A DNA stretch of 31,386 nucleotides. Source: a virus. Under the pieces are notes generated by a model, which saw nothing but the letters and a program-made list of their open reading frames with translations, ran no database searches and was not told the DNA's origin. Shown here in pieces: positions 15,360 through 26,779 of this stretch (position 1 is its first letter; every line of letters starts with the position of its first letter). The position numbers were made by a program, and so were the translations under genes. Location of the stretch: IMG/VR virus record IMGVR_UViG_3300047311_000351, positions 1-31,386 of that record. The stretch is one strand, 5' to 3'.

Positions 15360-15438
15360 GTCGGTGTGCCGGAACGGCAGACGGGGGCGGTCAATCCAGT
15401 ACCGCGAAGAGATGCGGGTTCGAATCCCGTCACCGACA
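15360..15438 (+). tRNA. Atypical tRNA with 9-nt anticodon loop
   Basis: The acceptor stem is perfect (GTCGGTG 15360-15366 with CACCGAC 15431-15437, discriminator A at 15438). The T-arm (GCGGG/CCCGT with TTCGAAT) and the D-arm (CCG/CGG, GG in the loop) are normal. The anticodon stem GCGGT/ACCGC (15387-15391 with 15401-15405) leaves a 9-nt loop, CAATCCAGT, instead of 7, and the variable region is 8 nt. If the T at 15395 acts as U33, the anticodon is CCA (Trp); the central triplet would be TCC (Gly). The identity is therefore left open. It lies on the plus strand, opposite to the late operon, ending two bases before the tail-terminator stop. Confidence 0.75.
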
Positions 15439-15439
15439 C

Positions 15440-17258: not shown

Positions 17259-18836
17259 TCATGGGCGGATGGTGATACCGGTGGATGGGCGGGGGGTCGT
17301 GCCGGTGGACGGGCGTGATGTGCGACCGGTGGACGGGCGCGGCGTGATCCGGCCGGTGCTGGTCGCGGTCAGTACGCCCGCACCCGCGATCGTGGCCGTG
17401 CCGGAGACGGTGGACTGGCCGACGGCGATCAGTACGCCGGCGCCGGCCGGCGCCGTGGTGGCCTGCAATGCGCCGACCACGAGGAGGGTGCCGCTCCCGG
17501 TGAGCACGGCCATCCCGGCGATCTGACCAACCGCGGTGACCGTGCCGGCCCCGGCCGGACTCGCGGTCGCCTGCTGAATCGCGGCGACCGTCAGCGCGCC
17601 GGCGCCCGCCGGCGACACGCCGGCCCGCTGGACGACCAGGGCCGACAGGGACCCGGCGCCCGCCGGGGCGGCCGCGGCGATCTGCACGGCGGCCGCCGTG
17701 AGCGCGCCGGCGCCGGCCAAAGCTGCCGTGCCGGTGACGTTGCCGCCCGCCGCCGCCGTAACAACGCCGGCACCGGCCAGCGTGGCCGTGGCGATCTGCA
17801 CGACCGGAGCGGTCAGCGCGCCGGCGCCGGCGGGCGACGCCGCCGCCCGCTCCGTTACGACCGCCGACGGCGCACCCGCGCCGGCGAGGCTCGCCGTGAC
17901 ACCCTGAACCACGACAGCCGACAGGGCGCCGACACCGGCCGGCGACACGCCGGCCCGCTGAACGGCCGCGGCCGCCAGAGCGCCCGCACCGGCCGGCGCG
18001 GCAGTCGCCTGCTGAACGACGTTCGCCGTGACAGCGCCGACGCCGGCGATCGAAGCGCCGACGATCACCGTTGCGGCCGCGGTGACGACGCCCGCGCCGG
18101 CAATCGAGGCGGTGCCGTTGATGGTGGCGGCGGCAGCGCCGGCGAGGATCTCGACCAGCACCATGCGCACCACGTCGGAACCCGTGGCCTGCGTAAAACC
18201 CAACGTGATGGAACCGGGTGCGACCGTCGATGTAGCGCGGGCCAGCGCGCCGGTATCGCCGCTCGATCCGTTGACCTGACCGATCAACGTCGATGAGGTT
18301 TTCGCCGTCAGCACGTACGAGTTCGATGCGGTCGCCGCGGCGACGGCGATCACCGAGCCGGCCGCCTGCGCCGTGATCGCCTTGGACCACGCCGCCGCGC
18401 CGGCATTGTTCGCGACCGCGCCGGGCTGTTGAGCGACCGGCAGGGCGCCCGCGTACCACTTGACGCAGGCAATCAGCCCGGACGCGGGTGAACCGCCCGG
18501 ATCCCAGGTGACCGTCTGCGAAGACGGCGACGCGCCGGCATCCTTCGCCCAGATCTCAGCGTCGCCACCCGAGGCGGAAACGTCACCCTGCAGCCGGGTC
18601 CACGAGCCGGACACCGAGTCGGTGACCGCACCCAGCGACGACGAGGAACCGGCACCGTTGCCGCTCGCGCAGAACGCCACAACCAGCGAGCCGGCGGCCG
18701 GCGTGAACGATCCGGTCGTGACGGTAGTCGCGTTCGCCGTCGCGACGGGTGTCGTACCGAGCTCGGCGACGGCAAGAGCGACGTCGTTGCGGGCGATGAG
18801 CGGCCGGGCGGGATAGCTGCGACCGAGGCGCGCCAT
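17259..18836 (-). CDS. Fibre-like protein with fourteen 18-residue repeats
   Basis: This is a 525-residue protein in three parts. Residues ~1-240 form a beta-sandwich-like domain (FTPAAGSLVVAF, SGSWTRLQGD, AEIWAKDAG, VVRMVLVEIL) resembling the 19379-20137 product. Residues ~243-495 consist of about fourteen copies of an 18-residue unit, consensus ASPAGAGALTAxVVQxAT, most copies keeping exact length. The last ~30 residues hold three RPSTG repeats. The repeat region has two short strand segments per unit and would suit a solenoid or shaft; Gly/Ala content is extreme. It is probably a virion fibre, fixed by the N-terminal or repeat part. The gene lies between the connector and closure genes, so a head fibre is as likely as a tail fibre. 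Confidence 0.7.
   Translation of the reverse strand: MARLGRSYPARPLIARNDVALAVAELGTTPVATANATTVTTGSFTPAAGSLVVAFCASGNGAGSSSSLGAVTDSVSGSWTRLQGDVSASGGDAEIWAKDAGASPSSQTVTWDPGGSPASGLIACVKWYAGALPVAQQPGAVANNAGAAAWSKAITAQAAGSVIAVAAATASNSYVLTAKTSSTLIGQVNGSSGDTGALARATSTVAPGSITLGFTQATGSDVVRMVLVEILAGAAAATINGTASIAGAGVVTAAATVIVGASIAGVGAVTANVVQQATAAPAGAGALAAAAVQRAGVSPAGVGALSAVVVQGVTASLAGAGAPSAVVTERAAASPAGAGALTAPVVQIATATLAGAGVVTAAAGGNVTGTAALAGAGALTAAAVQIAAAAPAGAGSLSALVVQRAGVSPAGAGALTVAAIQQATASPAGAGTVTAVGQIAGMAVLTGSGTLLVVGALQATTAPAGAGVLIAVGQSTVSGTATIAGAGVLTATSTGRITPRPSTGRTSRPSTGTTPRPSTGITIRP
17352..18110 (-). repeat. Tandem 54-bp coding repeats
   Basis: About fourteen units of mostly 54 bp, each encoding an 18-residue repeat, run through the C-terminal half of the 17259-18836 gene. 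Copies are diverged at the DNA level but recur with GCGCCGGCGCCGGC-type cores. Three short GTGGACGGGCG-type repeats follow at about 17262-17351. Confidence 0.75.
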
Positions 18837-18865
18837 GGCTTACCGCCTTCCGCCGCCCGGCCCGG

Positions 18866-19363
18866 TCATTCCTCCCAAACGACGTACGTCACCGCATTGA
18901 CCGCCGCGCCGAACGTGACCCGCACCCGCAGGAATTTCGAGATCGGCACGGCCGGCTCACGGCCGAGCGGGAACTGTTTGACGTACTGGCCGGTGGGAGC
19001 GATGAGCTGGTAATCCAACACCCGGGTCACCGTCGTCGTGCCTTCCGACGTCGCCGTGTAGCCGGTCGCCGTGGTGCTCAGCGTGACCAGACTCGCCGGC
19101 GCGTTCGGGTCGTTGTGCGGCATCACGCCGGCCGCCACGGCCGCGGTGACCGTCGCCGCGACGTCGGTCTGAATGAGCTCGATCTTGCCGGGTGTGGCCG
19201 CGGTAGACCCGTCGAAACTGATCCCCCACTCGACCACGCAGAGCGGCCGGGTCGACGGGGTGGCGATCTGCAAGAGCGTCTTGATCGCGGTGCCCGTGGT
19301 GACCGGCGCGAGCGCCGCTGTCGTCGGGTTGGCACCGTTGAACGTGATGTAGGTGTTGGCCAC
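18866..19363 (-). CDS. Beta-rich virion protein
   Basis: This is a 165-residue protein with an N-terminal strand (TYITFNGANPTTAALAPV), a run of strands (LLQIATPSTRPLCVVEWGIS, KIELIQTDVAATVTAAVAAG) and a C-terminal RVRVTFGAAVNAVTYVVWEE hairpin. The WGISFDG segment and the closing strands are typical of a jelly-roll virion protein of actinophages that I have seen next to capsid genes, where it may decorate the head. The ATG at 19363 follows the upstream stop by 15 bases. It is part of the fibre block. Confidence 0.65.
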   Translation of the reverse strand: MANTYITFNGANPTTAALAPVTTGTAIKTLLQIATPSTRPLCVVEWGISFDGSTAATPGKIELIQTDVAATVTAAVAAGVMPHNDPNAPASLVTLSTTATGYTATSEGTTTVTRVLDYQLIAPTGQYVKQFPLGREPAVPISKFLRVRVTFGAAVNAVTYVVWEE

Positions 19364-19378
19364 GACCGTCCGGTCCCC

Positions 19379-20137
19379 TCAGTAGGTGGTGCTGCGGTTG
19401 ACGGCCTGGCCGACCACGAGGGGGGGTGTCGGCAGGAACGTGGCGGCGGCGACGATTTCAATCGCGACGCCGGCGAAGTTGAACAGGGCGCCGCCGCCCG
19501 AACGCAAGTCGTCCCAACTCACCGACGTCGACGCCGAACCGGTGCGGGTCTCGCTTTCGAGACCGCCCCAGTCGGTGTTCATCATCGAGTCGTGGACTTC
19601 GGTCCACACCGTCGGCGAGCTGCCCGGCGTCACCCCGATCACGGACTTGTCCATGGCGACGGCCGCGAACACCTCGGACGTGGTCGCGGGACCGGCGGAC
19701 AAGGTGATCGAGGCAGGCGTCGGCGGCCCGGAGAAACCGCCGTTCTGCTGCCCGCTTGCGGTCGCCCCGGTCGCGCTGTAGCCGGTGTAGGCGACGACGC
19801 TGACCGCGTAGAAAGCGGCGGCCCGGCCGCCGGATCCGGCGGTCAGCGTCATGGACGCCCCGGTCGACACGGGCGCGGTGAAGATCTTCGCGGCGGTCGG
19901 AAAGGTGGTCGGTGAGGCGGCGATCGCCGGGCCGGCCGTCCACGTCCACGAGCCGCCGCTCATCGTCAGCGCCGAGCTGGGATCGGTGGTGCTCCCGGCG
20001 TTCTCGATGTAGCCGAGCGCGACCACGAGCAGCGAGCTGGACGGCGGTGTGAAGCTCGACGTGGTGAAGTTGCCGGTGCCGAAGTTGCCGCTCGTGCCGG
20101 TGATCTGCTGCAGCAGGTCGGTTCGGGAGAGGCTCAC
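19379..20137 (-). CDS. Beta-sandwich fibre-like protein
   Basis: This is a 252-residue protein whose core (FTPPSSSLLVVALGY, SGGSWTWTAG, AAAFYAVSVVAYTGY, FAGVAIEIVAA) follows the same order of motifs as the N-terminal domain of the 17259-18836 product, so the two are probably paralogues. It has no repeat part. I prefer the GTG at 20137 because GAGGGG lies 5 bases upstream; the GTG at 20143 directly abuts that site. The leader and start lie in copy A of the 38-bp repeat. It is likely a virion surface protein. Confidence 0.65.
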   Translation of the reverse strand: MSLSRTDLLQQITGTSGNFGTGNFTTSSFTPPSSSLLVVALGYIENAGSTTDPSSALTMSGGSWTWTAGPAIAASPTTFPTAAKIFTAPVSTGASMTLTAGSGGRAAAFYAVSVVAYTGYSATGATASGQQNGGFSGPPTPASITLSAGPATTSEVFAAVAMDKSVIGVTPGSSPTVWTEVHDSMMNTDWGGLESETRTGSASTSVSWDDLRSGGGALFNFAGVAIEIVAAATFLPTPPLVVGQAVNRSTTY

Positions 20138-20171
20138 GGTCACCCCTCGCGCTGTTGATCTACACCAGAAG
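20134..20171. repeat. 38-bp direct repeat, copy A
   Basis: It matches 20726-20763 in 37 of 38 positions. On the minus strand it carries the ribosome site and GTG start of the 19379-20137 gene. On the plus strand it ends 14 bp before the -35 box of the 20222 gene. Its end holds TACACCA, which pairs with TGGTGTA just outside (20175-20181). Confidence 0.85.
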
Positions 20172-20185
20172 CCATGGTGTAAGCG

Positions 20186-20221
20186 TTGACAGATCCAGTA
20201 AATTCCAGTAACGTACTGGAC
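20186..20221 (+). promoter_or_regulatory. Promoter and operator of the RHH gene
   Basis: TTGACA (20186-20191) and TAACGT (20209-20214) are spaced by 17 bp, and the -10 box ends 7 bp before the ATG at 20222, giving a leaderless mRNA. CCAGTA half-sites at 20195 and 20205 are one helical turn apart. The second forms an inverted repeat with TACTGG at 20214-20219. This overlaps the -10 box and fits autoregulation by the ribbon-helix-helix product. Confidence 0.75.
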
Positions 20222-20467
20222 ATGACAGCCAAGGGATACACCAACATGTCAATCAAGCCGGAAGCCAAGCGCGGCCTAGAGCTGCTGGCGTTCGACCTGT
20301 CCAATGAATTCGGCCGCAGGGTTTCACTGAGCGAAGCTCTCGAACTGGCGATGGACGCGATCTATGGCAACGAGGTCGAGATCCTAGACCCGCAGGGGGC
20401 GACGAACGCCGGACAGGAATGGACGACCGCGTACGACGGCAACGGCAACGTGGTGGGGCAGCGATGA
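20222..20467 (+). CDS. Ribbon-helix-helix regulator
   Basis: This is an 81-residue protein. TNMSIKPEAKRGLELLAFDL gives the N-terminal beta strand and first helix, and GRRVSLSEALELAMDAIY gives the turn and second helix of a ribbon-helix-helix (Arc/CopG/ParD-like) DNA-binding domain. Such proteins bind DNA as dimers through the strand. The C-terminal ~30 residues are hydrophilic and less ordered. The promoter in front has half-sites spaced for RHH dimers. Its stop overlaps the next start (ATGA). An antitoxin role is possible, but the partner does not look like a known toxin; autoregulatory repressor is the safest call. Confidence 0.75.
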   Translation: MTAKGYTNMSIKPEAKRGLELLAFDLSNEFGRRVSLSEALELAMDAIYGNEVEILDPQGATNAGQEWTTAYDGNGNVVGQR

Positions 20468-20715
20468 GCATCAAGGTCGCCTGCCCGGCATGCTCTCGGA
20501 CCATCACTGCCCAGAAGTGGACGGGCTACCCGCGTCGGCATAAGAGCCCTGCCGGAGAGTGGTGCCCTGGCGTGGCGACCCGGCGCTTGCGTTGGGCAAG
20601 CGACGCGACACGTCGGGATGTCGCGTACGTCGTGCGCGCTTCGATGGACATGACGGCATGGATGGCCTACCTGCGAGCACACCGACCAACCGACACGCCG
20701 ATCGGGCACCGGTAG
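20464..20715 (+). CDS. Small zinc-ribbon protein partner of the RHH gene
   Basis: This is an 83-residue basic protein. It opens with VACPACSRTITAQKWTGYP and has further His and Cys residues (KSPAGEWCPG), giving CxxC plus H and C as a possible zinc site. A helical, Arg-rich C-terminal half follows (ATRRDVAYVVRASMDMTAWM). The ATG overlaps the RHH stop, so the two are coupled. No toxin fold is recognised. The gene ends next to a run of nine Gs and copy B of the 38-bp repeat. Confidence 0.65.
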   Translation: MSIKVACPACSRTITAQKWTGYPRRHKSPAGEWCPGVATRRLRWASDATRRDVAYVVRASMDMTAWMAYLRAHRPTDTPIGHR

Positions 20716-20725
20716 AGGGGGGGGG

Positions 20726-20763
20726 TCACGGTCACCCCTCGCCCTGTTGATCTACACCAGAAG
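20726..20763. repeat. 38-bp direct repeat, copy B
   Basis: It is a near-perfect second copy (one mismatch) of 20134-20171, 592 bp away. On the minus strand it keeps the ribosome site and GTG of the fibre gene but leads into a C-run instead of the gene. It precedes the second plus-strand promoter by 22 bp. TACACCA again has a TGGTGT partner outside (20771-20777). Confidence 0.85.
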
Positions 20764-20785
20764 AATCATTATGGTGTCCTGCCCG

Positions 20786-20821
20786 TAGACAGTCACTCAG
20801 TCACTGTGCTACTGTCTTCTC
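20786..20821 (+). promoter_or_regulatory. Promoter of the second cassette unit
   Basis: TAGACA (20786-20791) and TACTGT (20810-20815) are spaced by 18 bp; the -10 box ends 6 bp before the ATG at 20822, giving a leaderless mRNA. Two tandem CAGTCACT octamers (20790-20805) fill the spacer and look like a binding site different from that of the RHH gene. Confidence 0.65.
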
Positions 20822-21304
20822 ATGACCACCTGGACCCGCCAAGCAGCCGGCCACTACACGGCCGGGAACTCCGAGATCCGACGCGACCAGATTCGCTTTG
20901 GCGATGCCTGCGGCAGCACCGTGACGAGGTGGCACATCACCATCGACGGCATCCGCATGGACAGCTGGGCCAACCTCGCAGGCGCGAAAATCCGGGCCGC
21001 ACTACTGCCCGCGATCATGGCTGGCGAGAAATGCTGGGCGCGAGGTTGTGACCAGCCTGCGACCGGTAGCACGCCGCGAGCGACTGTGAACCTCCCCGGC
21101 GACGGAGAAATCGCCACCTGCGATCGCTGCCACCTGTCATTCACCGGCATCCCCCGCAACCTCACCGGGCGGCGCTGCTGGTCGTCGGATTGCAGCCGAC
21201 CGGCCAAGGGCCTTACCGCTCGCGCGGCGATCTACGGCCGAGGCTCCGGTTTCGTGGCAACCTGCAACGGCTGTCACCGTCACTACACCGGACAGGAACG
21301 CTGA
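20822..21304 (+). CDS. Protein with duplicated zinc-binding module
   Basis: This is a 160-residue protein. The N-terminal ~70 residues form a small strand-rich domain (GDACGSTVTRWHITIDGIRM). Two related modules follow, each with CWxxxC, a basic stretch, ATCxxCH and a YTG or FTG turn: CWARGC to CDRCHLSFTG, then CWSSDC to CNGCHRHYTG. Each should bind one zinc ion with four Cys/His ligands, and the pair clearly arose by tandem duplication. The protein is leaderless, and its stop overlaps the next start (TGATG). Nucleic-acid binding or a scaffold role is possible; no enzyme motif is present. Confidence 0.7.
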   Translation: MTTWTRQAAGHYTAGNSEIRRDQIRFGDACGSTVTRWHITIDGIRMDSWANLAGAKIRAALLPAIMAGEKCWARGCDQPATGSTPRATVNLPGDGEIATCDRCHLSFTGIPRNLTGRRCWSSDCSRPAKGLTARAAIYGRGSGFVATCNGCHRHYTGQER

Positions 21305-21591
21305 TGGCCGCCCCGAAGAACCCCAACACCGTTGCCGCCCGCGCCGCGAAAGCGGTCCGGGACCGCAACCTGAAACTCAGCACGGCGGCGCAGCTCCTGC
21401 GCGAGGCTGGCTGGACGGCCTATCCGCCCGTCACGCTGGCCGACCTGACCGCCCGCCTCGGACTCGACGACCACGAGCAGCAAGCGGTGCTGTCATTTTC
21501 CGGTGAGCCGGTCGACAAGGTGTGGACCGAGATCGAGGCCCGCGATCTGATCACCGCGTGGGAGGCATACAGCGACCCGAACGGCGACTAG
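21304..21591 (+). CDS. Hypothetical helical protein
   Basis: This is a 95-residue protein with a basic N-terminus (APKNPNTVAARAAKAVRDRN) and helical remainder (LKLSTAAQLLREAGW, LADLTARLGLDDHEQQAVL). It looks like a small DNA- or protein-binding helical domain but matches nothing I can name. It is coupled to the upstream gene by TGATG. The stop lies only four bases from the stop of the convergent connector gene, with no terminator between, so its transcript would run into the late operon as antisense RNA. Confidence 0.65.
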   Translation: MAAPKNPNTVAARAAKAVRDRNLKLSTAAQLLREAGWTAYPPVTLADLTARLGLDDHEQQAVLSFSGEPVDKVWTEIEARDLITAWEAYSDPNGD

Positions 21592-21595
21592 AGCC

Positions 21596-22132
21596 TCAAG
21601 CGGCGAGAGTGCCGCGGTACTGCGCAGCCAGCGCCGCGGCCGAGGGTGTCAACCTGATCCCACCCTCGTTCGCGGTGTACCGCACGATGTAGTCGTCGAT
21701 CTGCTCACCGGCGACCGCGCTGACCGGGATCACGTATGCCGTGGCGGCCGTCTCCAAGACGGCCGCCTTCACATCGTCGGTCGGCGCGGTGTAGCCGTGG
21801 GTCAGGTCGATCTCCACCTCATCGGGCGGGATCACGTAGGACAGGCCGAAACCGGCGGCGCGGTAGACGACATTCTTGATCACAGTCCAGCCGGTGACTG
21901 TGGCGCCGTTGATCCGGACCGCGGCCACCGCCGTCACCGGCCGGAACGGCAGCCGGATCCACACGTACCGGCTGCCCAGCGTGACGTACGTAGCCGACGT
22001 CGCCTCAAACCAGGTCGCCGCGGCCTGGCTGAACGCATTCGAGGCGAGCGTCAACACCTGGTTCGCGGTGTACGTGTCCAGGTCCTGTTGGAGGTAGCCG
22101 GCCAGTTCAGTTGCTGTCGCGTACTGAACCAT
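21596..22132 (-). CDS. Head-tail connector protein (gp6-like)
   Basis: This is a 178-residue protein. The ATATELAGYLQQDLDTYTAN start, the helix QVLTLASNAFSQAAATWFEA and the strand part (WIRLPFRPVTAVAAVRINGA, VEIDLTHGYTAPTDDVKAAV) are the pattern of HK97 gp6-type connectors that bind the portal. The ATG at 22132 overlaps the glycosyltransferase gene by 26 bp. In most actinophages it is followed at once by the closure gene; here the plus-strand cassette and the fibre block intervene. Confidence 0.85.
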   Translation of the reverse strand: MVQYATATELAGYLQQDLDTYTANQVLTLASNAFSQAAATWFEATSATYVTLGSRYVWIRLPFRPVTAVAAVRINGATVTGWTVIKNVVYRAAGFGLSYVIPPDEVEIDLTHGYTAPTDDVKAAVLETAATAYVIPVSAVAGEQIDDYIVRYTANEGGIRLTPSAAALAAQYRGTLAA

Positions 22133-22853
22133 CGGAGCTCCTCAGCGCCTTGACCGCAGCCACATGGACATCACGCATGCCGTCACACCAGTGCCGATAC
22201 AGCGCCTCGTCGCGGCGGTACTGATCGGCGCGGTTGACCCGCGCATACCCGCCATCCCAATCCGCCTTACCGGCAAGCGGATGGCAGTGTTCGATGACCA
22301 CCTCAGGCAGGTACCGCAGGCAGCCGGCGAGCCGGCCGAGGTCCATCACCGCGTTGTCGCAATACATGTGCTCCACCGGCGCCGGCACCATCGCACCGAG
22401 CGTCTGCACGATGTCGGAGGTCATCGCCCACGCCGTGCACAGCCGCTCCCGCTGCAATAGGTCGTCGCCGTAGACGATCCCGGTACCCATCTCCCGCAGC
22501 GCAGCCAGCATCGTTGACGCCCAGCCGACCGTGCGGGGACGATGGTCGTCGCCCATGAACGCGAGCGCGAAATGCCCCTGGCAGGCGAACAGGTTTGCCG
22601 CCCGGTCGAGCTTCGCCACCATCGGCCGCCAGCGGCCGGCGTTCATCAGATTGATTCCCCGGCCGGGGTCCGCGGCGGCGAGGCGGGCCAACGCGGTGTG
22701 GTAGCCCGGCAGGCTCGGATCGTCGTCGTCGACCGCGAAGACGAGGCCGGCCGACTCCCCGAACGCCTTCGTCGCGTCCCAGGCCGCCGCGACCCGTTCC
22801 AGCGACTCCGGCCGACCCCGAGAGGGGACGATGACCAGCAGGTCAGAGTTCAT
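22107..22853 (-). CDS. Glycosyltransferase (GT-A, family 2-like)
   Basis: This is a 248-residue enzyme. The opening LLVIVPSRGRPESLERVAAA is a classic GT2 nucleotide-sugar binding start. FAVDDDDPSLP provides acidic metal-binding residues, and FALAFMGDDHRPRTVGW supplies the second acidic (GDD) motif. The C-terminal part (ALYRHWCDGMRDVHVAAVKA) is helical. It should transfer a sugar from a nucleotide-sugar donor to a phage or host acceptor in the cytoplasm. It overlaps the 22843-24429 gene by 11 bp, so the two are coupled. Its place behind the capsid gene suggests a virion protein as acceptor. Confidence 0.8.
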   Translation of the reverse strand: MNSDLLVIVPSRGRPESLERVAAAWDATKAFGESAGLVFAVDDDDPSLPGYHTALARLAAADPGRGINLMNAGRWRPMVAKLDRAANLFACQGHFALAFMGDDHRPRTVGWASTMLAALREMGTGIVYGDDLLQRERLCTAWAMTSDIVQTLGAMVPAPVEHMYCDNAVMDLGRLAGCLRYLPEVVIEHCHPLAGKADWDGGYARVNRADQYRRDEALYRHWCDGMRDVHVAAVKALRSSDGSVRDSN

Positions 22854-24429
22854 CGCCGTGTACGTTCAGGTGAGGGCCATCGTGTGCGGTCGGCAGGCCG
22901 CAATGTGTCCGCTCCGGATCGCCCAACTCGCGCATGAATCCGTTGACGAAGTCGCAGCGAGCGATCGGCACCCGCACGAACAGGGTGTCGGCGAAGTGCC
23001 GCTCATGCTCCCAGCGGATCGCCGCGACGAACCCGACCTTCCCGAGCGCCTCGACCGCGTCCGGCCAGAACGCCGCGTACAGCTCGCGGGAGAGTTCCTG
23101 CGTCTCGACGACGACCAGGTCCACACCGGACAGGTCGGCGGATGCGAGCGCCTCCAGCTCGGTGCCCTGCGTATCGACGACCAGCACGTTCGCGGGCTCG
23201 GCGCACCCTGCCTGAAGGGCGAACAGCGGCTGTACGGCGACGTCGAACGCGTCAGCGGTCGGCACGTGGGCGTCTTCGCGAAGCCCGCTGAACACGCTGT
23301 CCACGGCACGGTGGAACGTCGCGGTTCCCGGCTCGGCCCCGACCGCGAACTCGACGACCGCACAGTCCGGGAATTCGGTGCGCAGGAAAGCGGCGTTGTC
23401 GGGGTCCGGCTCGACAAGGGTGATCTGGTCGAAACCGCACTTGCGGTAGATCGGCACCTCTTCGCCGCGGTGCGCGCCGACGTGCAGCACACCCTTCGCG
23501 GCGATGCCCAGGTCGGCGAGCGCCTCCGGTAGCAGGTCGAACGTCCACGCCTGCTCACGGGTCATCGCAATGCGCTTCAGCCCGGAAATGTCCGGCCGGC
23601 GTTCCAGCAGGGCCAGCGCGGTGCGCTCGCGGACGTACAGCTCCTCCGACACCCACACGTTCTTGAGGTGTGTCGTCTTGACGCGGGTGTCGACGTACAC
23701 CGGGATGTCCAGGGCGCCGGCCCGGACGCAGAACGACAGGTCCTCGCTGAACAGCTGTGCCGTGGACGGGTTCGGAATGCGGTCGTACCACTTCGGCCCG
23801 AACTCCGTCAGCATCCGCTCGAGGACGGATCGATGTATGACGATGCATGCCGATCCGGTGGCATGGCACTGGGTCACCGCGTCACGCGGGTAATCCCAGC
23901 GGACCGCGTACCCGGACTGTTCCTCCACGGTGATCCAGTCATAGATCACCGGTGTCGGCTGTGTGCGCCGGCCGCCCATCCCGTCGGACTCGATCTCCTG
24001 CTGGCTGAAGCACAGCGCGCCGACGATCGGACGCTCGACCGGGTCTGCGGCCGCGAGAAGCAACTCAAGGACGTCCGGGGGAAAGCCCATATCCGTGTCG
24101 AGCCAGAACAGCCATTGCGCGTCCGGGTACTCAGTCAGGAAGTCATGCACCGCGGTGTTCCGGGCGTCGATCAGGCCGCCGGTGCCGTACCGCAACGCGT
24201 GGACGCGTTCCAGGCCCGGGCCGAGCCTGCGGTGCGTCTGGTAGTCGAACGCGATCAGCTGCACCATCGAGCGGTGCCACGAGTAGGCGACGTCGTTGCC
24301 GCACACGTACGCCAGGACAACGGCGTCGGCGGAATTCGGAGCCTCATCGTGTCCATTGGCCGGACACGATGAGATGTGCTGGCTATGGGTTCGACACGTG
24401 CCGTCGCCGCTCACGTCGCACTCAGCCAC
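22843..24429 (-). CDS. Glycosyltransferase / FkbM methyltransferase fusion
   Basis: This is a 528-residue bifunctional protein. Residues ~36-285 are a GT-A glycosyltransferase: GGLIDARNTAVHDFL, WLFWLDTDMGFPP with the DxD motif, HATGSACIVIHRSVLE and FSEDLSFCVRAGA. Residues ~310-500 are an FkbM-type SAM-dependent methyltransferase: GVLHVGAHRGEEVPIYRKCG (SAM loop), LVEPDPDNAAFL and VVDTQGTELEAL. The termini carry Cys/His clusters (for example HCGLPTAHDGPH) that may bind zinc. The likely role is adding a sugar and O-methylating it, or modifying one glycan in two steps. The GTG at 24429 overlaps the previous gene. Donor and acceptor are unknown; the capsid or the nearby fibre proteins are candidates. 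Confidence 0.82.
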   Translation of the reverse strand: MAECDVSGDGTCRTHSQHISSCPANGHDEAPNSADAVVLAYVCGNDVAYSWHRSMVQLIAFDYQTHRRLGPGLERVHALRYGTGGLIDARNTAVHDFLTEYPDAQWLFWLDTDMGFPPDVLELLLAAADPVERPIVGALCFSQQEIESDGMGGRRTQPTPVIYDWITVEEQSGYAVRWDYPRDAVTQCHATGSACIVIHRSVLERMLTEFGPKWYDRIPNPSTAQLFSEDLSFCVRAGALDIPVYVDTRVKTTHLKNVWVSEELYVRERTALALLERRPDISGLKRIAMTREQAWTFDLLPEALADLGIAAKGVLHVGAHRGEEVPIYRKCGFDQITLVEPDPDNAAFLRTEFPDCAVVEFAVGAEPGTATFHRAVDSVFSGLREDAHVPTADAFDVAVQPLFALQAGCAEPANVLVVDTQGTELEALASADLSGVDLVVVETQELSRELYAAFWPDAVEALGKVGFVAAIRWEHERHFADTLFVRVPIARCDFVNGFMRELGDPERTHCGLPTAHDGPHLNVHGDEL

Positions 24430-24658
24430 GGCGCACGCCCCTGAACTGGTACCGATAGTGGTCCGTGGGCTTGCGCGAAGGGTCGGCCACCAGTTCGTAT
24501 TCCGCGAACCTGATCTCCGGGAGCTCTATAGGCTCTCCCCGATTCAGCCTCGGCGAACCAGTTACGTTGAATCGGTACTCCTGCGGCAGGTCAGGTAACG
24601 CCTGCACGCGACCATCCGCAGGACCGCCGGCGAACTCAGCGACAATTGCCTCAGCCAC
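24422..24658 (-). CDS. Hypothetical small protein
   Basis: This is a 78-residue protein of unknown family with a strand-rich core (ALPDLPQEYRFNVTGSPRL, IRFAEYELVADPSRKPTDHY). The GTG at 24658 overlaps the upstream stop by 8 bp and the gene overlaps the following GTG, so it is translationally coupled on both sides. The pattern FAGGPADGRVQALPDLPQEY, with a C-terminal HYRYQFRG strand, resembles small actinophage proteins of unknown role found near capsid genes. Confidence 0.65.
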   Translation of the reverse strand: MAEAIVAEFAGGPADGRVQALPDLPQEYRFNVTGSPRLNRGEPIELPEIRFAEYELVADPSRKPTDHYRYQFRGVRRG

Positions 24659-24893
24659 GGCGGATGTCCCGCCGCTCGCCGGGCGCGGCCGTCGCCGTCT
24701 CCACCGGCGGATCGTTATAGCCGGGCGGTTCCGCGCTGTATCGCAGCCCGTACCGCGAATCGCGGGAGAACAGCGTCGGCGCGGCCTTCACCACGGGATC
24801 ACTCGCCGGCCAGTGCTCACCCTTGTGCACGAGCACGACGCCGCACGTCTGCGTCGGTATCTGCGCGGTCTCGACCGCATACACCACATCCAT
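24651..24893 (-). CDS. Hypothetical small protein behind the capsid terminator
   Basis: This is an 80-residue protein. I chose the ATG at 24893 because of the GGGAGG site 6 bases upstream; the frame is open to 24929, but that part lies in the hairpins. The core (VYAVETAQIPTQTCGVVLVH, GEHWPASDPVVKAAPTLFS) looks like a compact strand-helix domain, and the C-terminus is Pro/Arg-rich. It is the first gene after the post-capsid hairpins. Its function is unknown. Confidence 0.65.
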   Translation of the reverse strand: MDVVYAVETAQIPTQTCGVVLVHKGEHWPASDPVVKAAPTLFSRDSRYGLRYSAEPPGYNDPPVETATAAPGERRDIRRG

Positions 24894-24913
24894 GTCAAAC
24901 CTCCCAGGTAAGC

Positions 24914-24948
24914 GGCAACCCCCGGGCACCTGGGACCCGGGGGTTGCC
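24914..24948. terminator. 13-bp hairpin after the capsid genes
   Basis: A perfect 13-bp stem (24914-24926 with 24936-24948) closes a 9-nt loop. With the neighbouring hairpin it follows the capsid and 71-residue genes on the minus strand. No T-run is present, so it may attenuate transcription or stabilise the capsid mRNA end. Confidence 0.65.
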
Positions 24949-25201: not shown

Positions 25202-26779
25202 TCAGGAACTCACCAGGAGCCGGAACGCGAGATCGTTCGCCGAGGACCCGCCGATGCGGGAGTACGCGAACAGGCCGCGCTGGCCGGTCGGCATGCCGTA
25301 CGCGGAGCCGGCGGTCGCCTGCTGGAAGATCTGCGGGATGAGCTCGACGGACATCCCGCCGCGCCGCGCGATCACGTAGTTGGAGAAGTCGCCGGCGATG
25401 GCGTACCCCTCCGTCGCCGTGGTGACCGTGGTCGTGGTCGGCATGTACGGCGACTCGTAGACGGGGCTCTGGAACAGCTCCTCCACCGAGCCTTCCGGCA
25501 GGTTGACCGTGTAGGCGTGGTAGACGTTCGCCGCGCCGAGCTGCCGGATGGCGTTATTCACGGCGACGTTCATGAGCCAGGACGCGTTGCGGCGGTTGCG
25601 CTGCGGGACGGCCTGCCACACGTTGTACGGGTCGTTGACGGTGATGCCCGGGTTGGTGGCCACCTTGACCCGCACGTTGGTGTTCGCGCTGAGGCAGGTG
25701 AGGATGCCCTTCGGCTCACCCGTGCCGGAACCGCGGGTGAACTTGTCGACGAGGAGCTCGTCGTAGCCGGCGGCCAGCAGGGTCTGCATCTCGCTGGCGA
25801 AGCCGGGGTAGTCCATTCCGACTTCGATCGAGTAGGGGATGAATCCGCGGGCCATGAACACCGTGACGATCGGCTGCGCCAGGGTCGGCGAGTCGTCGCT
25901 AACCGCGGAGGCCTCCGTGTCGAACGACCAGGTGACACCGGCGCTGGAGACGCCCTTCCAGACGTTGGTGTTGACGTCGACCTGCTTCGCGATGGACAGG
26001 AACGGGTTACCCGATCCCTGCGCGGTCATGATGATGCTGGGGTCGATGAACACGGGAATGCCGAAGCCGCCGGCGGTGGTGGTGCCTTCCGACGCGGCCC
26101 GGTATTCCTGGTAGGCGCGGACCGCCTGCCGCTCCTCGTCAGAGAGCAGGCCCATCGCGTTGGGGTCGGTGACCAGCTTCATCCACGCTTCGCGGTAGTG
26201 TTCGTTCTCGGTGACGATGATCCGCCTGGCGATGTCGGGGTTGCGGCGGATCTGCAGCTCGACGTGGTCTTTCTCGTCGGAGCGCAGGTGCGAGGCGGCG
26301 TTGCGGTCGTCCAGCGTCCGCAGCGCCCGGTCCCGGGCCTCCTGGTTGGTCAGGCGTCGGACGTCGGCGCCGGCCTCCCCGCCGTAGTTGATGTTCGCCA
26401 GTGCGCGCTGCACCGCGGCCGGCTTGCGGCGGAAGATCTCCTGGATGTTGCGGTGTTCCTCGACCCTGGCGATGGCCAGGTCGCGCAGCTTCAGGCCGTA
26501 GTCGAACGCCTTCTGCTCTTCGGAGGTCTTCTCCCGGAGCTCGCCGGTGTCGTCGTCCTGGTGCAGGCTCTTCAGGTGTGCGTCGAGGACCTCGACGTAG
26601 CGGGCCAGTTCGTCGGGGGTCTTGCCGCGCAGCTCCTCGGGCATGTCACCGGCCACGAGCGCGGCAACGTCCTTGCCGTGCAACTCGTCGCCAATATTGG
26701 GGGCGCCGCCCTGGGCCAGCCAGATCGGGGCGCCGTTCTTGCGGTAGCCGAGCAACCTCGGCGTGCGGCGGATGTTCAC
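25202..26779 (-). CDS. Major capsid protein (HK97 fold)
   Basis: This is a 525-residue capsid subunit with a long N-terminal part. Residues ~1-215 are mostly charged helix (ELRGKTPDELARYVEVLDAH, HRNIQEIFRRKPAAVQRALA) and act like a delta or scaffold domain that the protease would remove. Residues ~225-525 carry the HK97-type core: TTTAGGFGIPVFIDPSII, then IGG-like strands, GYDELLVDKFTRGSGTGEPK and a C-terminal strand end. The motif GTGEPKGIL is the common marker of HK97 capsids. The GTG start overlaps the protease stop. It should assemble the icosahedral shell around the portal. Confidence 0.92.
   Translation of the reverse strand: MNIRRTPRLLGYRKNGAPIWLAQGGAPNIGDELHGKDVAALVAGDMPEELRGKTPDELARYVEVLDAHLKSLHQDDDTGELREKTSEEQKAFDYGLKLRDLAIARVEEHRNIQEIFRRKPAAVQRALANINYGGEAGADVRRLTNQEARDRALRTLDDRNAASHLRSDEKDHVELQIRRNPDIARRIIVTENEHYREAWMKLVTDPNAMGLLSDEERQAVRAYQEYRAASEGTTTAGGFGIPVFIDPSIIMTAQGSGNPFLSIAKQVDVNTNVWKGVSSAGVTWSFDTEASAVSDDSPTLAQPIVTVFMARGFIPYSIEVGMDYPGFASEMQTLLAAGYDELLVDKFTRGSGTGEPKGILTCLSANTNVRVKVATNPGITVNDPYNVWQAVPQRNRRNASWLMNVAVNNAIRQLGAANVYHAYTVNLPEGSVEELFQSPVYESPYMPTTTTVTTATEGYAIAGDFSNYVIARRGGMSVELIPQIFQQATAGSAYGMPTGQRGLFAYSRIGGSSANDLAFRLLVSS

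Follow-up and report, generated by a model that had tools for sequence, protein, structure and literature searches.

The window, that is, the whole stretch of DNA analysed, is a 31,386-base virus record with 67.7% GC, a fragment from an uncultured virus of soil actinobacteria. Its minus strand carries two overlapping genes. The first encodes a 528-residue fusion of a GT-A glycosyltransferase (GT) with an FkbM methyltransferase (22843-24429(-)), assigned from Pfam, TIGR01444, PHROG and predicted structure; the second encodes a 248-residue glycosyltransferase of GT-A fold (22107-22853(-)), assigned from PHROG, its structural model, PDB fold matches and conserved motifs. The fusion starts with GTG, in a start context common to its relatives ('CGTGCGCC GTG'), and overlaps the second gene by 11 nt, which in turn runs 26 nt into the gene of the head-tail adaptor (21596-22132(-), phrog_442). 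Upstream, on the same strand, lie the genes of a terminase, a portal, a protease, the major capsid protein (25202-26779(-), PF05065), a 71-residue ORF, a connector-like protein (24651-24929(-), phrog_9538) and a 78-residue ORF taken from the ORF list (24422-24658(-)), which shares 8 nt with the fusion start. The first-pass annotation had described both the fusion and the overlapping second gene, as the family searches, motifs and predicted folds confirm, and had placed them within the head module between capsid and connector. The head module stands, but the cassette is located downstream of the capsid gene between the connector-like gene and the head-tail adaptor. Judged from the overlaps, the cassette and the head genes would form one operon. 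Codon-position GC is gene-like in both ORFs (GC3 0.86 in the fusion and 0.85 in the second GT), and dN/dS between the window and four relatives is 0.10-0.35 for the GT-A, FkbM and second GT domains each, so that all three are under purifying selection. Elsewhere in the window the minus-strand structural operon is broken by small plus-strand ORFs at 20186-21591(+), with two similar Cys-rich units encoded at 20822-21304(+), and a tRNA-Gly (TCC) is found at 15360-15439(+), on the strand opposite to the structural genes and between two structural ORFs.

The glycosyltransferase half of the fusion spans residues 36-277 (23599-24324(-)) and matches phrog_34859 'glycosyltransferase' with an E value of 2.3e-15. 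Invariant over 28 relatives are the DxD motif, DTD (residues 111-113, 24091-24099(-)), the pair RN (90-91), H254 and the ED (229-230) of the SED motif (228-230, 23740-23748(-)). Foldseek matches of the predicted structure are the GT domain of LH3, STIV A197 and GalNAc-T. With its DxD motif, catalytic acid and GT-A fold, this half is predicted to be a GT-A enzyme. The second gene, too, is predicted to encode a GT-A-fold enzyme: it matches phrog_14945 'glycosyltransferase' (E 1.6e-35), its model has a pLDDT of 94.9 and structural matches to GT-A enzymes, the best PDB fold matches are a mannosyltransferase, the rhamnosyltransferase RmlT, chondroitin polymerase and the fucosyltransferase WrtF, and its catalytic residues are invariant among relatives. 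The assignment of this gene to GT2 was not sustained, since the second GT has no Pfam match and both it and the fusion fall below the cut-off of every Pfam GT model, PF00535 (GT2) included; 'GT2' is therefore a working label taken from fold and PHROG, not from Pfam. Neither the fusion and the second GT nor profiles made from them found a usable match when searched directly against PDB sequences.

The methyltransferase half (residues 280-488, 22966-23592(-)) is recognized by PF05050 (E 1.9e-6, 28.5 bits against a cut-off of 22.7) and by TIGR01444 (39.3 bits against 37.7). In alignment A4 it keeps the signs of the FkbM family, namely the SAM-binding loop VLHVGAHRGEE (residues 314-324, 23458-23490(-); A4 positions H37, G39, A40, H41, G43 and E45 invariant), the acidic end of strand 2 and the D-x-x-G-x-E motif, which opens with DTQG (residues 419-422, 23164-23175(-); D140, G143 and E145 invariant). 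The domain resembles the family in this loop and motif and in exceeding both curated cut-offs, and differs from it in being fused to a phage GT-A and in having close relatives found only in phages. The viral structure library also contains multi-domain FkbM proteins of uncultured phages. Structure prediction and family search of the two halves, proposed earlier as a check, hence returned a GT-A fold and an FkbM family member, and the catalytic residues proved intact across relatives in GT-A, second GT and FkbM alike.

The Cys/His clusters noted beforehand at both ends of the fusion do exist, at residues 4-27 (24349-24420(-), pLDDT about 35, predicted disordered) and 492-520 (CDFV..HCGLPTAHDGPH, 22870-22956(-), pLDDT about 30). 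A related motif, HxCNTIHxAGPExCPP, forms the N-terminus of the fusion in two surveyed loci (L004 and L011) and is encoded by a separate small ORF in another (L005), as would be expected of a movable peptide. Among the relatives compared, the C-terminal stretch is confined to the window. That the ends are conserved modules was considered and rejected, the C-terminal one being absent from all the relatives compared and the N-terminal one variable. By sequence and model, both look like variable, predicted-disordered add-ons, short accessory peptides that belong to neither enzyme; a catalytic role of either end is not likely, and a metal-binding role is possible.

Four queries, namely the fusion, its FkbM domain, the second GT and the capsid protein, were used to scan viral contigs for relatives, and the loci obtained (L-numbers) were surveyed by profile HMMs built from these same loci. 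Because some loci share one contig, tallies are limited to the capsid-query set, in which each contig is counted once, and there to the 41 metagenomic contigs, possibly chimeric or partial, that continue for 3 kb or more beyond the capsid gene. The GT-A gene lies at most 3 kb from the capsid gene in all 41, always preceded by a connector-like gene between the two, and its partner enzymes vary, as the neighbour survey suggested in the first-pass annotation could reveal. FkbM is fused to GT-A, with a separate second GT, in 10 contigs, and in one more with an extra CmcI; the second GT is itself fused to GT-A in another 10 and separate in 7; CmcI is fused, in company of a second GT, in 5; both are separate genes in a single contig; and FkbM, CmcI and second GT were all undetected beside GT-A in 7. 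Other arrangements are a GT-A alone plus a fusion of second GT and FkbM (L023) and three separate genes for GT-A, FkbM and second GT (L027). Where neither a methyltransferase nor a second GT was detected, several loci have NAD-dependent epimerases or a UDP-GlcNAc 2-epimerase in the slot. Therefore, the slot that follows GT-A takes interchangeable kinds of carbohydrate enzyme. The CmcI domains match PF04989, 'Rhamnosyl O-methyltransferase/CmcI', and the three methyltransferase families that accompany these GTs, FkbM, RMNT_CmcI and Methyltransf_24, are known or likely to act on sugars. An additional CmcI domain lies between capsid and connector in L148, and two tandem GT-A genes are present in L133 and L141.

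The same order is not restricted to metagenomic contigs. One genome scan found GT-A after capsid and connector in ten loci taken from genomes, of which nine are actinobacterial and one comes from a Chloroflexota MAG; the prophage-like loci are from Amycolatopsis, Spongiactinospora, Streptomyces, Nonomuraea, Acrocarpospora and a Microbacterium MAG, besides the Chloroflexota MAG. In Rugosimonospora a GT-A is present and other head genes were undetected. Among the isolates inspected, those with the nearest capsids (Sbash, ThankyouJordi and Xula, 31-39% identity) have nothing between capsid, connector and adaptor.

Pairwise distances were correlated over two sets, of 26 and 20 contigs, containing all the compared genes. 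Capsid distance correlates with that of GT-A at r 0.83 and 0.87, of the connector at 0.76 and 0.77, of the portal at 0.58 and 0.61, of the second GT at 0.36 and of the terminase at 0.12 and 0.21. Terminase divergence being almost unrelated to that of the capsid, terminases seem to have been swapped repeatedly in this lineage. The pattern would suggest a GT-A that is matched to the capsid, with the remainder of the cassette exchanged around it. Part of the tracking may be due to adjacency in the genome; the portal, which lies on the other side of the capsid gene, tracks it less well than GT-A does.

The reading favoured here is that the cassette makes a virion-protein glycan with methylation, to which a probability of about two in three can be given. 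The cassette would be expressed together with the head genes, for glycosylation of the virion. Its GT-A half would attach a sugar to a structural protein, most likely the capsid or a head-surface protein, the second GT would lengthen the glycan, and the FkbM half, joined to the first transferase in one polypeptide, would O-methylate the sugar as a cap or tailoring step. Replacement of FkbM by another family of sugar O-methyltransferases points to a sugar as the methyl acceptor. The sequences show the enzymes with intact motifs, their position, their linkage to the capsid gene and the swapping of partners. Fold and family leave donor and acceptor unfixed, and we infer which sugar is transferred, which protein receives it, in what order the steps occur and the benefit, which may be a masked or more stable particle or an escape from recognition. 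Particles of these viruses are probably coated with varied, sometimes methylated sugars.

That the virion carries methylated glycans had been proposed in the first-pass annotation, and the context speaks for it: the place in the head module in 41 of 41 contigs, the intact motifs, the replacement by CmcI, the epimerases and the mycobacteriophage precedents. The search for an acceptor went the other way, as no acceptor site and no lineage-specific Ser/Thr extension were found in the capsid C-termini of the window and its relatives. Freeman, in 2023, reportedly placed a glycan acceptor site at C-terminal Ser/Thr residues of a capsid. The window capsid ends in VSS, those of the GT-A-bearing L145, L177 and L183 end in NQ, and relatives devoid of the GT also end in Ser/Thr. 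The odds of the capsid being the glycan acceptor are about even. A stronger form can be put forward only tentatively: GT-A would be a capsid-dedicated initiating GT that co-evolved with one HK97-type actinophage capsid lineage, and the genes behind it would be a recombination slot for the swapping of tailoring enzymes (FkbM, CmcI, the second GT or epimerases), so that the capsid 'serotype' would differ from virus to virus while the attachment step stays constant.

Fibres are a different candidate acceptor. Just downstream in many relatives, between the adaptor and the tail genes, Ser/Thr-rich proteins with unrelated bodies share a conserved 9-residue C-terminal repeat tail, RPx[ST]G[TI]TxRP. 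They are found in L002, L003, L004, L007, L009, L010, L021, L023, L110, L123, L124 and L126 and in the window, where a Ser/Thr/Ala-rich protein (17259-18836(-)), a candidate acceptor, ends by its sequence in the repeat RITPRPSTGRTSRPSTGTTPRPSTGITIRP. The tail may receive glycans or serve for attachment; as a universal acceptor it was rejected, being absent from a locus that has the cassette (L008). If such proteins were the target, the cassette would glycosylate and methylate tail-fibre or head-fibre proteins (e.g. the RPxTGTT-tailed ones, 17259-20143), thereby tuning adsorption, and the capsid would be spared. Cassette positions in other phages lend some weight to this, since the GT-FkbM cassette of Yara and ShakeNBake comes behind the tail genes and a very long ORF, and the GT cassette of phiAsp2 also sits after tail genes. 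Nevertheless, the 17 kb locus of L008 includes the full cassette, GT-A~FkbM fusion plus GT, but lacks all of these proteins, and GT-A divergence tracks the capsid. A fibre target is thus unlikely.

Less likely still is that the enzymes alter a polysaccharide or lipid of the host surface during infection or lysogeny, leading to serotype conversion or superinfection exclusion. The substrates of FkbM and CmcI enzymes in bacteria include small molecules and cell-wall glycans, which would suit such a role, as would the matches of the GT-A folds to polysaccharide enzymes and the homologues in prophages. The cassette, however, lies inside the late head genes and overlaps them, in 41 of 41 contigs, rather than in a lysogeny region, and neither the fusion nor the second GT shows a hydrophobic membrane segment when the sequences are read by eye.

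Decoration of phage DNA by base glycosylation is very improbable. It was brought up by the label 'DNA methyltransferase' that the family of the second GT bears in PHROGs and in the RefSeq record of phiAsp2; the label, though, belongs to a fusion of a GT with Methyltransf_24, noted as a putative O-methyltransferase in the same phiAsp2 record, and no base-hydroxymethylating enzyme of the thymidylate-synthase family (PF00303) was found in 20 related records, which may be incomplete. The label of phrog_2675 and phiAsp2 pas34 (NC_005885) was accordingly set aside as a misnomer for this GT~Methyltransf_24 protein, likely a sugar O-methyltransferase to judge from its domains. Weakest of all, and scarcely to be expected, is direct methylation of a protein or other small molecule unrelated to a glycan, for which the diverse substrates of the FkbM family leave room and against which stand the fusion to a GT and the replacement of FkbM by RMNT_CmcI in the same place.

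Few phages are known to have glycosylated particles. In this capsid lineage a GT is as regular as the connector, both in uncultured soil viruses and in prophages of culturable actinobacteria, which suggests a phage group in which coats of glycan are the rule and at the same time diversify. The actinobacteria that harbour these prophages offer hosts for testing, and the cassettes are a source of natural GT~methyltransferase fusions.

Several known systems resemble the cassette of the window in part. The head module of Corndog and other cluster O mycobacteriophages includes an O-methyltransferase as well as GTs, and methyl plus glycan modification of the Corndog capsid was already proposed in 2015 (PMC4351075). 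According to a later article, which cites Freeman et al. 2023, the targets of the cluster O enzymes are capsid and tail tube (PMC11600133); another refers in the same way to glycosylation of the Che8 capsid (PMC11256854). Corndog gp35-gp38 are like the window cassette in lying inside the head module, and unlike it in being separate genes between portal and protease (PMC4351075). The tblastn matches listed for the window fusion and second GT, at the E limit applied, do not include Corndog. In Che8 (cluster F1), gp108 (NC_004680, 56171-57346), annotated as a glycosyltransferase only, is a fusion of GT2 and O-methyltransferase domains (PF00535 with PF13578/PF05711), and its C-terminal half matches Methyltransf_24/TylF macrocin O-methyltransferase. 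Che8 gp108-gp110 hence share with the window a GT~O-methyltransferase fusion plus further GTs, but they are at the right genome end, unlinked to the capsid gene, and the methyltransferase is of the TylF/Methyltransf_24 type instead of FkbM. Actinoplanes phage phiAsp2 encodes a GT, a GT~Methyltransf_24 fusion and a GT (pas33-pas35), the N-terminal half of pas34 being 49% identical to the window second GT; this cassette differs in its place after the tail genes and in its methyltransferase, and no GT-A of the window's family was found in it. Streptomyces phages Yara, ShakeNBake, Rooney and others, with the order GT, hypothetical gene, FkbM, have an FkbM domain 35-38% identical to that of the window beside a GT, whereas their genes are separate, follow tail or lysis genes and include a GT of another type (PF13524). 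As judged from sequence, the window genes present the hallmark of the Che8 and Corndog virion-glycosylation cassettes, phage GTs together with an O-methyltransferase. Cassettes of the Che8/Corndog kind are already known; new are the fusion of GT-A with FkbM, its constant position next to the capsid gene throughout a lineage and the exchangeable partners.
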